Assembly (NCBI GenBank): GCA_017648065.1
Contig: JAGCJJ010000076.1
Location: 1-36,855, forward strand
Length of the DNA stretch: 36,855 bases
Direction of reading: 5' to 3'
From: Kiritimatiellia bacterium
GTDB taxonomy: Bacteria > Verrucomicrobiota > Kiritimatiellia > RFP12 > UBA3636
Program-made: the position numbers and the translations under genes
Notes under the pieces: generated by a model
What the model was told of the DNA's origin: nothing
Seen by the model: only the letters and a program-made list of their open reading frames with translations
The model's database searches: none
Part shown: piece by piece, positions 30,049 through 36,855 of the stretch
How the letters are laid out: the number at the start of each line of letters is the position of its first letter
Numbering within the stretch: the stretch's first letter is position 1

Positions 30049-32859
30049 ATGAGAAAATTTTCTTTACTTTTTCTTTGCTTTGCATTCGGTTCTTTGAATG
30101 CAACTGTATATCAACCAGGTATGTGGTTCCATCATGAACCAACAAAGGAAATATTGGATACAAAGCAATTTCCAAGTATTGCAGCTATTGAAGGAGTAAC
30201 TCCATGCCAAGGTGTTTTCATGGAGTATACTGATTCTTCTATAAGTATGGACGTTCCAGCAGGAGGTTCCGCAGGATCTGGAACTAATTTATATAATAAT
30301 GTGGTCTATACTTGGTATCGAAATGAGATGTTTGGATACGAAGGCCTTTTCTTCGTTGAAAATGGCAAAACTTATACCGTTTCAAAGGACCATGGACGCT
30401 ATATGCGTGTAATTATAGATGGTCAACAGTTATTCTCTGATACTGGTTGGTTTAATCATCCTAATGGCAAATACACTGCCACAAAAACTGGCTTTGTTAA
30501 TTTAGAAGTTCGTGGTGGTATCAATGGTGAAAATTATATTGGCCCACTATCCCAAAATTTTGGTACCGGTTATAATACAACAGGTCTAGATTATAAAAGC
30601 TCTACATGGGGCAAAGATCCTTGGAAACCATTCCTTGACCCAGGAGATTGCTCTTTACTTCGCATAGTTAAGAGTGAAACAGATTACATGACAATGGATA
30701 ATGTTGAAGTAGATGGCGATGATTTGATTATTACTGCTACCTTTAATGATGTTCCTGCAGATGGCGTGCTATCCCTAATGTATGGCAATAATGATGGAAA
30801 AGAAATTTCTGCTCATTGGGAAAATGCTTACAAAATAGGAACTGTTCCAGCAGGTGATACACAAGCTGCTCAATATAGAGTGCCAAATGTTGCTACAGCA
30901 AGCTTTGTTGCATTGCGTCTGCAGCGTACAGATTATGCTACTGAACCATATCTACAGTTTTCTGCTTCAAGAACTGTTCCAAAACCAACTCCAATTTTTA
31001 ATTTGGTCAATACAATAGTTGGTTATTCTAATTTAGTTTTTAATGCAACAGTTGGCTCTTCTGGTACTGGAGCTACTAGTGTTGATGCTGCAATTCAAAT
31101 TTCAACTGATGCTGCATTTTCAAATATTGTCAAGACAGAGCCTCTTACATTAACAGATGCTGGTGATGAGATTCTTAATGTTGTTGCTCTTTCAAGTAAT
31201 ACTGTTTACTATGCTCGTATCTACGGAACTAATAACGTAGGTCAAGTAGGTATGTCTGGAACAATTGGTCCAGTATGTACACTTACTCCTACTGCAGTAA
31301 CTGCTGGTACAACTGGAGCCCCAGCTACATTAGGTGGTATTGCAACCACACTTACTATTAAAGATTTTGGTGAGGATTCTAATGATGCTAAGGCATGCAT
31401 TGAGGTTTCAACTTCATCTAGTTTCTCAAGTGTAGATGCTTCTTCTGATTTTGTTGATATTCCTCTTAATACACCGACGGTTCTTACTGCTTTCCATGTT
31501 AAAGAGGGAGAGAAATTCTATTATAGAGCAAAGATCATTAACTCATGGGGTATTGTTACTTATACTCCTGTTGTTGGTCCTATTGAGTCAAAGGCATTCC
31601 CATTTGTTCCAACAGATGTTATTTGGACGGTTGAGGATAATGGCACTTTGACTGTTTCTATAAATATTTTAGCGGTGGAGTGGGAATCATCTGCTGCACT
31701 TTATGTAAATGGTGTAGAAACAGGTTCCACTTATAATTTCAGTGAGCCAGGTGTAATTTCCTGGACCGGTATTCCTGCCCCAACAGTAGATACTCCAATT
31801 TCTGTAAGATTGAGTGCTGAAGCAGATGTCTCAATTTATGAGAAGGGTTACTACTATAATGATTATTTAGCAACTGTTATTCCTGGTTCTGCATCTTGGA
31901 AGAAAGGCTGGGTGTATTTCAGTGATTCAAAGACATTACGTTGGACAGATAAGCTTGGCTTTGAAAATGTAATTTCAAATGTAAATAAAAACACAAGTAA
32001 TAATACTTATAAGATAGATAATTCGCAGAAAGAAAATCAACTTGCCTTAAATATAGATTTTTCTGTTGGCTTTGTTGAGGAGGGATGGAGTCTGCCAGAA
32101 CGACTTCCTTCACGTTTTAATGGAGGTTATACAACCAACTTTGTATTCCCTGCAGGAACGAAATCTATTGAACATGGATTCTTTGAAAATACAACCAGCC
32201 TTCGTTCTGTAGAATTTAATGAAGGACTTTTAGATTTAGGTTATGGTAGTAGTAGATATAATCCATTTAATTCAGCAACATCATTGGAGAGAATAGGTGA
32301 ACTTCCAAAGAGCCTGACAAATATTGCTTCTGGTTTTTGTAATAATTGCCCAAAGCTAGGGGGCGATATTGTTTGGCCTGCTAATGTGAAAGTTGTGGAT
32401 AAATCTGCTTTTTGTGGTACTAAGATTTCATCAATTGTATTTCCAAAAGGTGTTACACATATTGGTCCGTATGGAACTGAAGGACGTATGTTGTCTAAAA
32501 ACAACAATATTAAGGATATTTGGCTGTCAGAAACTGTCGTTTATGTGTCAGGTCGTATGTTCTCGGATACAACAAGTGATCTTGGTGTAAATGTTTGGTA
32601 TAGTAAATTCCCTACACAAGGTTGGCATTCTGCTCAGTTTTCAAATACTAAGTCATATACTGTTACAAATTATTTTGAGTGGCGTTCAAGAGAGCAATTC
32701 TATGAATTTGCAGAAACGAACAACCAGAAATTTGTGTTTACATTCCCAGAAACATTTGATGGTATAGGCACATGGAAGGATGGCTCTGCTCAAACACAAA
32801 TTATTCGCTGGTGGAAAAATCCTGATTTGGACCCACCTATGATGCTAATACTTAAGTAA
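30049..32859 (+). CDS. Large secreted protein: PA14-like, FN3-like and BspA-type LRR domains
   Basis: A 936-residue exported protein with a signal peptide (about 1-18, ending ...FGSLNA). The mature N-terminus begins TVYQPGMW and runs into a PA14-like carbohydrate-binding module (about 20-200) with YEGLFFVENGKTYTVSKDHGRYMRVIIDGQ. Two beta-sandwich repeats of FN3 type follow (about 325-420 and 425-525), each with a STDAAFS or STSSSFS strand and a Y-x-A-x-(I/V) strand. Residues about 700-830 are BspA-type leucine-rich repeats (SLRSVEFNEGL, SIVFPKGVTHIG). No sorting tail such as PEP-CTERM is visible. The likely role is binding host or plant glycans or matrix. The terminator at 32941-32983 and a gene-own promoter make it a single transcript. 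Confidence 0.75.
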   Translation: MRKFSLLFLCFAFGSLNATVYQPGMWFHHEPTKEILDTKQFPSIAAIEGVTPCQGVFMEYTDSSISMDVPAGGSAGSGTNLYNNVVYTWYRNEMFGYEGLFFVENGKTYTVSKDHGRYMRVIIDGQQLFSDTGWFNHPNGKYTATKTGFVNLEVRGGINGENYIGPLSQNFGTGYNTTGLDYKSSTWGKDPWKPFLDPGDCSLLRIVKSETDYMTMDNVEVDGDDLIITATFNDVPADGVLSLMYGNNDGKEISAHWENAYKIGTVPAGDTQAAQYRVPNVATASFVALRLQRTDYATEPYLQFSASRTVPKPTPIFNLVNTIVGYSNLVFNATVGSSGTGATSVDAAIQISTDAAFSNIVKTEPLTLTDAGDEILNVVALSSNTVYYARIYGTNNVGQVGMSGTIGPVCTLTPTAVTAGTTGAPATLGGIATTLTIKDFGEDSNDAKACIEVSTSSSFSSVDASSDFVDIPLNTPTVLTAFHVKEGEKFYYRAKIINSWGIVTYTPVVGPIESKAFPFVPTDVIWTVEDNGTLTVSINILAVEWESSAALYVNGVETGSTYNFSEPGVISWTGIPAPTVDTPISVRLSAEADVSIYEKGYYYNDYLATVIPGSASWKKGWVYFSDSKTLRWTDKLGFENVISNVNKNTSNNTYKIDNSQKENQLALNIDFSVGFVEEGWSLPERLPSRFNGGYTTNFVFPAGTKSIEHGFFENTTSLRSVEFNEGLLDLGYGSSRYNPFNSATSLERIGELPKSLTNIASGFCNNCPKLGGDIVWPANVKVVDKSAFCGTKISSIVFPKGVTHIGPYGTEGRMLSKNNNIKDIWLSETVVYVSGRMFSDTTSDLGVNVWYSKFPTQGWHSAQFSNTKSYTVTNYFEWRSREQFYEFAETNNQKFVFTFPETFDGIGTWKDGSAQTQIIRWWKNPDLDPPMMLILK

Positions 32860-33146: not shown

Positions 33147-36100
33147 ATGAAAAAAAATATCAAATGGTTGTTGTCTCTCGTAGTTATGTTTAGCCTGTTA
33201 TCAGAGGTAAGTGCTGTTGTATATAGAACAGGCTTTCAGCAATTTAAATATGGTTGTAATTCTAATTCGTCAGCTGATTTGACTCAGACAGTTGCATCTA
33301 TAACTGATGCAACTAAGTTAGATGTTACAGAAACAACACTTATGGCTAGTATCAATGGTACTGGGAGTATTTTAAATCCAGTTTCTGGTAAGACATGGAA
33401 ATGGGGTGATAAGACCACCTTTGGTTATGAAGCAGAAATTTATCTTGAGCCAGGTGTGTATGATTTCTGGGGAAGATTTGATGATGGCGGTGCTGTCCTA
33501 ATAAATGACAATGTAATTTATACACATGGTGCTGAATCTGGATATAATAAAAGCCCTGCTATAGGAACATTTGAGGCTACTACAGCTGGTTGGTATAATT
33601 TCCGTGGCTATGTTTGGGATTGGAGTGGCGGAAAAAATCCGGTCGATGCAAAAAGTGCTATTCAAATGAGAAAGGATGGCGGCGATTGGATTATCGATAT
33701 GGCTGGTGTTCCTGCCCGCTATGCTACAGGTGAAGAGTATGTCGCTATTACAGAAGTAAAATCTGCAAAACGCAAGGATTGCTATGTTGTTGTTGCTTCA
33801 GTGACATTGCCAGAAGGAGTAACAGCTCAGGTTTATACATTGGCTTCCTCTGGAAATATCGGCTATGCTGAAAAAGCAGCTTGGGCAACAGCAACAGCAG
33901 CTCAAGAGATTACTGGTAATGGTGAAGCTCAGGAATTAAGCTTTACAATTGATTGCAGTGGGATTTCTGATCCTTACATCGTAGTTTATTCTGAAAGCAT
34001 CAATACAACAGGCTTGTCAGAGTCTTATGCAGCAGATGCTAAGTGGAATACTGCTTGTGCTTATTCTTCGTTGTTATCTATTGATGAAGCAGGTATAAAT
34101 CCTCTTGTTATTGACAATGCTACTCTAGTTCATAATAGTGACGGGACTTATACGGTTTCAGGTTCCCTTTATGGAGTGACTGCTGACATTTATTTTATTG
34201 CAAATGATGGAAGCACATCAGTAACAAATATTATTCAAGCAGGTGTAGAGGTAGGAAATTCTTTCTCTGGTGCTTTATCGGGGCTATCTTCCGATAAAAC
34301 CTACAATGTTTCATTATATGCAGATGGAGATTTTTGCGAATTAGAAAAGCCAATCGGTATTATTTATACAGGTGATCTAAAATTTAGTAATCCAGTAAAT
34401 CCAGATGAAATAGGTCTAAAACCAGGAAGTGTAACTGTTTCTCGTGTAAATGCTGATCCATATCCTATTACATTTAGCTATGCAATAACATCTACTGAGG
34501 CATCAGCAGCTGAGGGTGTAACATGGGCTGCACCACTAGCTTCTGTTACAATCCCTGCTGGTTCAACAAGTGTTGATATACCAGTTGTGCCTTTAATGGA
34601 CACAAATATAAGTAAGGATATTAGCTTATTTATCAGCATAAATGAGGGAAATTACGAGCTTCCAGCTCCGTGTGAGTTGATTCTTAATAATAGAGATAAG
34701 CTTATATCTGCATTTTATTCTTTAAAGAGGGTTTATACTCCTTCGACTGCTATTAAAGAGATGCTTGGTGGAAATAAATATGAAGATTTCCCTGTCCTAT
34801 TGCGCTTGCCTAAAGAAACTTCTAATATGTTGACTTCAAGTAATGGAACAGATCTTTTCATAGTTGATGAAAATGGCAAAGAATTGTCCTTTGAGGTTGA
34901 TATATTTAATGAAGAAGGAGAATCTCTTGTATGGGTAAAGGTTCCAAGCTTCTCTGCTGATACAGAGCTTGAGCTATACTATTCAGGTATCGAAAATTAT
35001 GAGAATAATCCAACAGATGTATGGACAAAGTTTGCTGGCGTATGGCATTTTTCTCCACAGCAGGCAAATGCAACAGAGCTCGCAGATTCAACAGGCAATG
35101 GTCTTGTTGGAAGCACTTCTGGTGAAGTTTCTGTTTATGATGGAGAGGATTCTGTTGCTGGAATGGGCGGTCTTTATACAACGCAGAAGATTCAAACCCC
35201 AGATTATGATGCATATCTTGATGATTTGGCAAAATTCAGTGCCTCTGGTTGGTTTAAATTGCCTCTTCAGAGCAATGGCTATGCTACTTTCTTCTATAAA
35301 AAGAATGGCGGAAATTGGGCTGATAGAAATGGCTGGTATATAGAATTAAGTCAAAGCACAACTAAAGCAAATCTTGTTTTAGATAATACCTCTACCTTGT
35401 ATTTTAATGATGTTAGCCAAAATTGGAATTATTTTAATGTTGTTTCTGATGGAACAGGTGTAAAGGTTTACATCAATGGTTCTAGCTCTCCTGCAACAAA
35501 GAGGGATAATTATGTAATACAGGCCAGTGGTAAAGGAGCCGAAATTTCCTTTGAGAATTGTGCTGTTCGTGAATTTCGTGTTCGTAATGGTGTAGCTTCT
35601 CCAGAGCTAACAGCTCTTGAATATGCGGTTATGGCAGATAAGGAGTTTTTTGTATGTAGTGAAGCAATATTGACTGATAATACTGCAATAAAATTGAGCG
35701 TTCCATCCATAGCAAGCAATGCAGATGGTTCCTTTACTGCATCAGTTGAGGTTATTGAAAATTCTGGCTCCGTTGGCTTTATATATGATAGAAGAGACTT
35801 TGCAATAACAAATATTGTTGCACAGGTTGAAGGTGCTGGCTTGGTTACAGAAATTCCACAAAACCTAGTAGTAAACAAAACATATATGCTTTGCTCATAC
35901 GGAAAGAATGCAGCAGGAACAGAAACCTTGGTTAAGGGACCTATCTTCTATAATGGTAATATATCAATTGAAAAACTTTCTGATTCGGAGGAATTTGGAT
36001 TGGTTCCAGGTGTATTCCGTATTTCGCGTGAAGATACAGCATTTGATCTAATAGTAAATATTGCTTGCTCAGGTACTGCTATTGCTGGTCAAACCTACGA

Positions 36101-36855
36101 GAGTATTCCTTCTACTGTAATAATCCCAGCTGGTTCAACCTATGTTGATGTAGAGGTTAAGCCAATGCTTGATTTTGCAGTAAATTCAGACACGACGGTA
36201 AATGTTACATTAGCAGATGGTCTATATGATGTTGATGCTTCTCAATCCTCTGTGGAAATGACAGTTATCAACGTAAAAGCTCCAGAGGGCAGCAATACAT
36301 GGGTTGCATCAACAAAAGGTCTTGCTTCAGATCCAAATAATTGGTCCAAGGGGCATATCCCACAAGATGGCGATGCAATTCTGTTTGATCACAATTTCTC
36401 AACACAGGATTGTGTTTGGGATGTTGATGCTGTGCTTGCAAGCTGGACACAAAAGGAAGGCTATACAGGTACTATTGAATTTCAGACAACCTTTGATGAC
36501 ACTCTCCCACAGGTTAAGGTGCTTGGAGATGTTGAAGTATTAAATGGTGTTTGGACACATTCTGCAAACAATGCTGAAGAGGTTTATCGTTTAGCTGTAG
36601 ATGTTGGAGGTGATTTTACTCTAGCAACAGCAGCAAAAATTGATGTTCGATTGAAGGGATTTGCTAGAAAACAAAGCTATCCTAATGCGGGACTAGGTGT
36701 TCATGCAGGTGGTACATCAAAAGGAGACAAGGTTTATGGTGACTTGTATGAGCCAATTAACCTAGGAAGTGGCTCTGAAAATGCTGGTGGTGGAGCTGTT
36801 CACCTTGTTGTTGGTGGAGATGCAATTCTTGAGGGCTTGATTACAACTCAATCTC
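33147..36855 (+). CDS. Giant modular surface protein, 3' end beyond the window
   Basis: I read this frame without a stop from ATG 33147 to the last base: at least 1236 codons, so it is a partial gene. A signal peptide (about 1-23, ending ...SEVSA) is followed by VVYRTG and a PA14-like module (about 25-195, with FWGRFDDGGAVLIND and a GWYNFRGYV strand). Next come a beta module (325-408), a Calx-beta-like module (425-515), DUF2341 (about 541-618: DFPVLLRLP...ELELYYSG), a LamG-like concanavalin fold (about 620-830: VWHFSPQQ..GWFKLP) and then a second beta plus Calx-beta-like pair (850-1038). From 1050 it becomes W-x-N-W-S-x-G-x-x-P, the start of a repetitive beta-helix or autotransporter-like region. 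AAGGA precedes the start. Likely a cell-surface adhesin or glycan-binding protein. Confidence 0.85.
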   Translation, partial: MKKNIKWLLSLVVMFSLLSEVSAVVYRTGFQQFKYGCNSNSSADLTQTVASITDATKLDVTETTLMASINGTGSILNPVSGKTWKWGDKTTFGYEAEIYLEPGVYDFWGRFDDGGAVLINDNVIYTHGAESGYNKSPAIGTFEATTAGWYNFRGYVWDWSGGKNPVDAKSAIQMRKDGGDWIIDMAGVPARYATGEEYVAITEVKSAKRKDCYVVVASVTLPEGVTAQVYTLASSGNIGYAEKAAWATATAAQEITGNGEAQELSFTIDCSGISDPYIVVYSESINTTGLSESYAADAKWNTACAYSSLLSIDEAGINPLVIDNATLVHNSDGTYTVSGSLYGVTADIYFIANDGSTSVTNIIQAGVEVGNSFSGALSGLSSDKTYNVSLYADGDFCELEKPIGIIYTGDLKFSNPVNPDEIGLKPGSVTVSRVNADPYPITFSYAITSTEASAAEGVTWAAPLASVTIPAGSTSVDIPVVPLMDTNISKDISLFISINEGNYELPAPCELILNNRDKLISAFYSLKRVYTPSTAIKEMLGGNKYEDFPVLLRLPKETSNMLTSSNGTDLFIVDENGKELSFEVDIFNEEGESLVWVKVPSFSADTELELYYSGIENYENNPTDVWTKFAGVWHFSPQQANATELADSTGNGLVGSTSGEVSVYDGEDSVAGMGGLYTTQKIQTPDYDAYLDDLAKFSASGWFKLPLQSNGYATFFYKKNGGNWADRNGWYIELSQSTTKANLVLDNTSTLYFNDVSQNWNYFNVVSDGTGVKVYINGSSSPATKRDNYVIQASGKGAEISFENCAVREFRVRNGVASPELTALEYAVMADKEFFVCSEAILTDNTAIKLSVPSIASNADGSFTASVEVIENSGSVGFIYDRRDFAITNIVAQVEGAGLVTEIPQNLVVNKTYMLCSYGKNAAGTETLVKGPIFYNGNISIEKLSDSEEFGLVPGVFRISREDTAFDLIVNIACSGTAIAGQTYESIPSTVIIPAGSTYVDVEVKPMLDFAVNSDTTVNVTLADGLYDVDASQSSVEMTVINVKAPEGSNTWVASTKGLASDPNNWSKGHIPQDGDAILFDHNFSTQDCVWDVDAVLASWTQKEGYTGTIEFQTTFDDTLPQVKVLGDVEVLNGVWTHSANNAEEVYRLAVDVGGDFTLATAAKIDVRLKGFARKQSYPNAGLGVHAGGTSKGDKVYGDLYEPINLGSGSENAGGGAVHLVVGGDAILEGLITTQS

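Follow-up and report, generated by a model that had tools for sequence, protein, structure and literature searches.

A putative surface-protein gene of a Kiritimatiellae bacterium with two FnIII-like/Calx-beta-like units, and a short C-terminal tail as a candidate sorting signal in the same genome

The stretch analysed here (the window) is a whole contig (G000:C89) of 36,855 bases from a Kiritimatiellae bacterium, the genome assembly of which comprises 2.06 Mb in 102 contigs with 88% completeness. The open reading frame (ORF) at 33147–36854 on the forward strand encodes 1236 residues without a stop before the window end, so that the gene runs off the contig. Its predicted product contains two related units flanking a DUF2341-LamG part, and is preceded by a gene for a BspA-type leucine-rich-repeat (LRR) protein with a short C-terminal tail. 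The features are listed below, where C5, C38, etc. denote contigs of this genome (G000) and the proteins encoded on them; L numbers used later denote loci.

33147..36855 (+): putative surface protein gene, 1236 residues seen, 3′ end beyond the contig
33147..33215 (+): probable Sec signal peptide (residues 1–23), from the sequence (basic start, hydrophobic core, SEVSA)
33219..33656 (+): N-terminal beta domain (residues ~25–170), PA14-like by eye, without Pfam match; similar stretches in relatives' proteins (residues ~20–180)
34104..34373 (+): unit 1, FnIII/Ig-like half (320–409), by model strands, unit profile, and structure alignment
34374..34703 (+): unit 1, Calx-beta-like half (410–519), by model strands and unit profile, and by a nine-unit profile that includes unit 1
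34842..35000 (+): DUF2341 (566–618), by Pfam
35184..35651 (+): LamG/concanavalin-like domain (~680–835), by homology to an orthologue and a paralogue with PF13385 scores slightly under the cut-off
35682..35954 (+): unit 2, FnIII-like half (846–936), by unit profile and structure alignment
35955..36284 (+): unit 2, Calx-beta half (937–1046), by unit profile and structure alignment
36291..36854 (+): beginning of a beta-solenoid-like region that the contig end truncates, by homology to C38, C5, and C77
30049..32859 (+): upstream BspA-type LRR surface protein, 936 residues (PF13306), ending PPMMLILK
32830..32856 (+): C-terminal tail DPPMMLILK of the upstream LRR gene

The two units are clearly related within the protein. 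Residues 326–507 and 854–1031 align with 52 of 185 positions identical (28%; E 9e-15, BLASTP; 25% over the whole units), and the Smith-Waterman score of the unit pair (177) is reached by none of 1000 shuffles (mean, 38.4; maximum, 64). All four sequence anchors by which the initial annotation had recognized two matching units at these places are present in units 1 and 2, respectively (NSDGTYT/NADGSFT, GLKPG/GLVPG, IPAGSTSVD/IPAGSTYVD, and NEGNYE/ADGLYD). A unit profile seeded with six units, including both from the window, finds two units in the protein, at residues 320–519 (279 bits) and 846–1046 (275 bits).

An AlphaFold model of residues 320–1048, based on a shallow alignment of six sequences (mean pLDDT, 60.1), resolves each unit into two successive series of seven strands (numbered from residue 320: 2–88 and 93–195 in unit 1; 535–617 and 619–721 in unit 2). 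The pLDDT values are 83–92 in ten-residue blocks over the first 100 residues of unit 1, mostly 54–86 in unit 2, and mostly below 50 in the DUF2341-LamG part of this first model (residues 349–524 and stretches before them). A Foldseek search with the unit model returned multi-domain Ig/FnIII proteins with low TM-scores and is not informative by itself. In VIA-align, run on the top 1000 of Foldseek, the second half of unit 2 (model residues 617–727) fits the fold of NCX1 CBD1 (Z-score, 10.4; root-mean-squared deviation, 2.5; 107 aligned residues), and its first half is superposed on receptor FnIII domains such as that of EpoR (Z-score, 10.3; root-mean-squared deviation, 2.2; 87 aligned residues). 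The first half of unit 1 matches beta-sandwich domains of glycosidases with a Z-score of 9.4, and no single-domain CBD match to unit 1 is found among the best 50 listed.

With a sequence profile built from nine units, NCX1 (3us9) is matched at E 2.4e-6. The Pfam Calx-beta family (PF03160) matches three of the nine units scanned (E up to 0.1), with no Calx-beta match for unit 1 scanned alone; against a cut-off of 27, C77 passes (28.4 bits), C5 lies just under (25.6 bits), and the window protein scores only 12.4 bits. The second half of each unit thus resembles Calx-beta by profile, by fold (unit 2), and by some Pfam matches, although the window protein stays under the Pfam cut-off; by eye, the acidic calcium-binding residues look thinned out relative to the Pfam Calx-beta consensus. 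The first halves resemble FnIII/Ig-like domains with Z-scores of 9–10, whereas no FnIII family match was found for the window protein or the units at the Pfam thresholds used. Altogether, each unit is, as judged from profile and model, an FnIII-like plus a Calx-beta-like module. The two-domain composition of the copies, the Calx-beta-like second half, and the position on both sides of DUF2341-LamG, all proposed in the initial annotation, are thereby supported, and both units take the same predicted fold, with less certainty for unit 2 in this shallow model.

Between the units, DUF2341 (PF10102; cut-off, 23.4) scores 22.0 bits in the whole-protein scan and 25.7 bits in the genome search, reaching the gathering score in the latter, and 25.2 bits in C38. 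For LamG (PF13385; cut-off, 27.6), the window protein has no match up to an E-value of 1; the corresponding regions of an orthologue (680–790, 23.4 bits) and of C38 (536–678, 26.0 bits) lie just under the cut-off, and other paralogues pass.

The window protein matches 17 places in its own genome and proteins in 30 of the 40 genomes searched (itself and its own genome included). Those relatives that carry names are assemblies of Kiritimatiellae obtained from the rectum of roe deer and dairy cattle (five of five loci, two assemblies). The bacterium with the window gene is probably a ruminant-gut bacterium, and the protein is probably a large surface protein of sugar-binding type. The paralogue C38, 51% identical over 910 residues, extends for 554 further residues past the matching point; solenoid-like strands are seen by eye in the AlphaFold model of a C38 orthologue (four sequences, shallow; mean pLDDT, 58.7), which has no significant PDB match in Foldseek (best E, 0.16).

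A single unit follows the DUF2341-LamG part in C93, C37, C36, C73a, and C4, and an N-terminal domain without Pfam name in C5 and C77; unit 1 of C38 (from residue 173) comes directly after an F5/8 type C domain (37–168). Among the proteins scanned, two full units occur only in the window protein, C38, and their orthologues; of other second units, L058 has two partial ones and C36 a faint one at 7.6 bits. In a tree of 32 units, window unit 1 joins C38 unit 1 with a support of 100/98, and these two form a 98/97 group with the C5 and C77 units and one G007 unit; both second units fall outside this group, at weakly supported places of their own. A recent tandem duplication within the window gene would account for the common anchors, their order, and the 28% identity, but the tree, in which unit 1 groups with lone units from other proteins, and the presence of both units in C38 already contradict it, and we consider it very improbable. 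Because of the same two observations, the repeat is better regarded as an assembly of a stock module than as a product of copying within the gene: the term 'duplicated' used at first holds for two copies of one unit, but not for a local copy event. Likewise, DUF2341-LamG does lie between the copies, but the earlier picture of a head between spacers appears less apt than a recurring pattern of a lectin-like domain followed by a unit, judging from the domain positions in the paralogues. The unit is a recurring stock module, often placed after DUF2341-LamG. The repeat itself is a sound observation of an ordinary surface-protein architecture.

The paralogues with a stop end in a tail of about nine residues, approximately P-x-[PGAS]-T-x-I-I-[IV]-[KR]-COOH (for example, GSALIIIVK in C38, AGTLLIVK, GSSFMLIIR, and IGTIIFVK). 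Similar ends close the BspA-type LRR proteins of the same genome (PPSTIILR, MPTTIVIR, and LGTIVIVK, besides PPMMLILK of the upstream window gene), which were collected by PF13306 (62 matched stretches in the genome) rather than by the way they end. Like many other genes of the genome, the upstream gene resembles known BspA-type LRR surface proteins; what sets those of this genome apart is that most bear the short C-terminal tail. Among 135 ORFs from loci not picked by tail (13 of the window-protein family, 26 LRR, and 96 other), the tail closes 12 of the 13 family ORFs that have a stop; among the 26 LRR ORFs with a stop, all of them matching PF13306, it is recognized by eye in 23. It is missing from C46 (477 residues) in the family, and from C43, C45, and C47 among the LRR proteins. 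Left out of the LRR count were a 243-residue ORF of C37, the LRR match of which is below the cut-off and which ends DSTIICIF, and three LRR matches without a stop in the data, two at contig ends (C77 and C37:13) and one on C47.

A matrix of seven positions trained on the 12 family tails separates the LRR ORFs from the 96 others with an area under the curve of 0.96, and gives 9.9 bits to the tail of the upstream LRR gene, a member of the other family. At least 3 bits are scored by 22 of 26 LRR versus 4 of 96 other ORFs, and at least 5 bits by 20 of 26 versus 1 of 96; this single ORF is cut by the fetched stretch, ends AGMIIIIK, and has a secreted-type look by eye. Within the 39 family and LRR proteins, only 8 of the 3900 positions between residues −110 and −10 reach 5 bits. 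The tail codons vary synonymously (at position −4, ATT 15, ATA 7, and ATC 5), and therefore selection acts on the protein. The tail is associated with secreted-type proteins: a less strict tail rule, applied to a mixed collection of 175 ORFs, some of them picked by the tail pattern, is satisfied by 30 of the 59 signal-peptide-like ORFs and by 3 of the 72 that lack a signal peptide, with 44 ORFs left unjudged because of an open start. Genome-wide, a codon pattern for the tail has 194 matches versus 125 for the reversed pattern, a rough excess of ~70 without correction for gene ends. Further tailed proteins on C7, C13, and C15, without Pfam domain at E 0.01, were picked by the tail pattern and therefore provide no independent support.

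Two of the tail-less LRR proteins, at L108 (G000:C45, 1246–2889, +) and L168 (G000:C47, 2304–3878, +), have similar, dockerin-like ends by eye, e.g., NVDIDRSGLLNPEAIEQIKRIRK, and look from these ends as if they used another attachment route.

Residues −130 to −11 of family and LRR proteins show no blastp match to each other at E 1e-3. All 23 LRR proteins with the tail belong to a single homologous C-terminal group, and the 12 from the family fall into five (6, 3, 1, 1, and 1 members); therefore, the tail occurs in six separate C-terminal contexts. In the relatives, whose ORFs with a stop were scored at 3 bits or more (f numbers being the family labels of the relatives in the search), the tail recurs patchily within the class: family-type ORFs reach this score in 16 of 19 cases in f1, 4 of 4 in f6, 2 of 4 in f3, 1 of 3 in f7, 1 of 1 each in f27 and f29, and 1 of 2 in f30, as do 6 of 415 other ORFs. 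The three f1 misses are a spurious frame, the orthologue at a contig end, and an ORF ending SPTVVVFR (1.4 bits, tail-like by eye).

As to known sorting systems, PEP-CTERM signals consist of the motif PEP-[SGA]-T, a transmembrane helix, and a basic cluster. The tail is likewise C-terminal, with Pro, then a small residue and Thr, a hydrophobic run, and a basic end, but it has neither transmembrane helix nor basic cluster, measures only about nine residues, and stops 4–5 hydrophobic residues after Thr, which places it outside the PEP-CTERM signals. For the type IX secretion system (T9SS), the last beta-strand residues of the C-terminal domain (motif C-t) are reported to be needed for export, and replacement of the last six residues of PorU to stop it (PMC11285876). 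This importance of terminal strand residues for export offers the closest working analogy to the beta-prone tail, although a whole Ig-like domain serves as the signal in T9SS. SprA was found in none of the 40 genomes, own included, in a search in which no control gave a match; weak PorV-family matches, none of which reaches the cut-off, occur in 23 of 40 genomes, and Peptidase_C25 (the gingipain/PorU family) is present in 9 of the 21 genomes from the order and in none of three of the window's genus. Among the NCBIfam matches of 16 tailed proteins, there is no C-terminal sorting family proper, although a nine-residue motif could hardly score; one of four proteins scanned, C93, matches Choice-of-anchor Q (NF041518) at residues 1341–1374 of 1384 with 15.1 bits versus a cut-off of 25. 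In the literature on Kiritimatiellae sorting signals, PEP-CTERM, and DUF2341/LamG, no description of the tail was found, which is weak evidence of absence.

We regard the following explanation as reasonably probable as a whole. The window gene would encode a Sec-exported modular surface protein, in which a rigid spacer of FnIII plus Calx-beta comes after lectin-like domains (the N-terminal PA14-like domain and DUF2341-LamG) and is followed in turn by a beta-solenoid-like stalk; by homology, the protein would end in the short tail. Glycans of plant, mucin, or bacterial origin are the probable ligands of the lectin-like domains, which the spacers may keep away from the cell. Of the roles considered for the tail, the likeliest is that of a sorting signal, a terminal beta-strand read by a presumed export or anchoring machine, in analogy to the last strand in T9SS. 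Because it is short, strictly terminal, synonymously varied, and carried by dissimilar signal-peptide proteins, the tail is a candidate C-terminal sorting signal, a hypothesis that we hold tentatively and at somewhat less than even chance. Slightly more doubtful still, though possible, is the full form of this hypothesis, namely, a new, minimal sorting signal, some nine residues long, that has an outer-membrane export or anchoring machine to itself and serves dozens of Kiritimatiellae surface proteins with at least six kinds of C-terminal region, beside ordinary PEP-CTERM/exosortase. If the tail is a sorting signal, many surface proteins of this gut lineage, which is largely uncultured, could be listed from sequence alone, and the search for the missing export machine would gain a concrete starting point.

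Several observations weigh against the explanation as a whole. The C-terminus of the window protein itself lies beyond the data, and its 84% identical orthologue has a stop 47 residues past the window end, without the tail, ~160 bases from a contig end (in this orthologue, L063 8600–9051 of RGIG4692, homology is lost before the stop, and a truncated gene and a faulty contig end are indistinguishable). An internal stretch scores at least 5 bits in 6 of the 39 family and LRR proteins, the matrix thresholds were picked after the scores had been seen, and ORF calling followed simple rules. Of the 13 family ORFs, 10 were also picked up in the iterated LRR search (counted as family only), and therefore some upstream domains are common to both sets; blastp shows this for C73b only, over an FnIII-like stretch. 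The ORF counts overstate independence, with the LRR proteins being one group and 9 of the 12 family tails falling into two. In the relatives, none of 11 family-type ORFs of f10, f11, f12, f17, f23, f24, and f32 reaches 3 bits; of seven LRR ORFs in two other f1 genomes, two do so (G003, 2 of 4; G010, 0 of 3) and five have no tail; and none of 17 LRR ORFs of the order families f2–f5 bears it. No partner gene for the tail was found.

Two other readings of the tail have to be weighed against a new sorting signal. The tail may lack any sorting role and simply be the closing beta-strand of the last domain, its likeness across proteins arising from composition; it is indeed beta-prone, and such proteins end in strands in other lineages as well (e.g., FYRVRV). 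That the LRR tails are one homologous group speaks slightly for the closing strand and slightly against the new signal. The regions preceding the tail nevertheless differ (DIGCYE choice-of-anchor-Q-like, solenoid, LRR with a Trp-Pro motif, and other ends) and show no similarity between family and LRR proteins, and the model of the C38 orthologue assigns no strand to the tail (pLDDT ~31, the whole end of the model being weak); we therefore consider the closing strand unlikely, if less so than processing by exosortase. For the latter, the tail would be a shortened PEP-CTERM signal with its helix shrunk to four or five residues, as its P-x-[PGAS]-T portion is reminiscent of PEP-[SGA]-T, and the genome has an exosortase match (152 bits; 20 of the 21 genomes examined, including this one, have matches) and two PEP-CTERM proteins on C84, ending VPEPASAMLALAGVAMLIRRRK. 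Not only are the transmembrane stretch and the basic cluster missing from the tail, but intact PEP-CTERM proteins coexist with it in the same genome, and both f4 genomes searched for exosortase have it as well, whereas none of 10 LRR ORFs from five f4 genomes has the tail. We consider this reading quite improbable.

The f4 genomes G021 and G026 contain 16 and 32 PEP-CTERM matches, respectively, versus two in the window genome, and no DUF2341 match; from such counts, the PEP-CTERM and tail styles of sorting may replace each other. Canonical PEP-CTERM proteins (L249 G000:C84, L250 G001:C26, and L253 G003:C24) often adjoin a gene for ~180–280 residues, the product of which ends in GTLTFK, GTVTFTK, GSITFTK, or similar, i.e., a beta-strand closed by lysine. 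In the window, the two neighbouring genes open (30049–30600 and 33147–33767) with similar-looking N-terminal beta domains without Pfam match (VYQPG.../VYRTG...), both PA14-like by eye.

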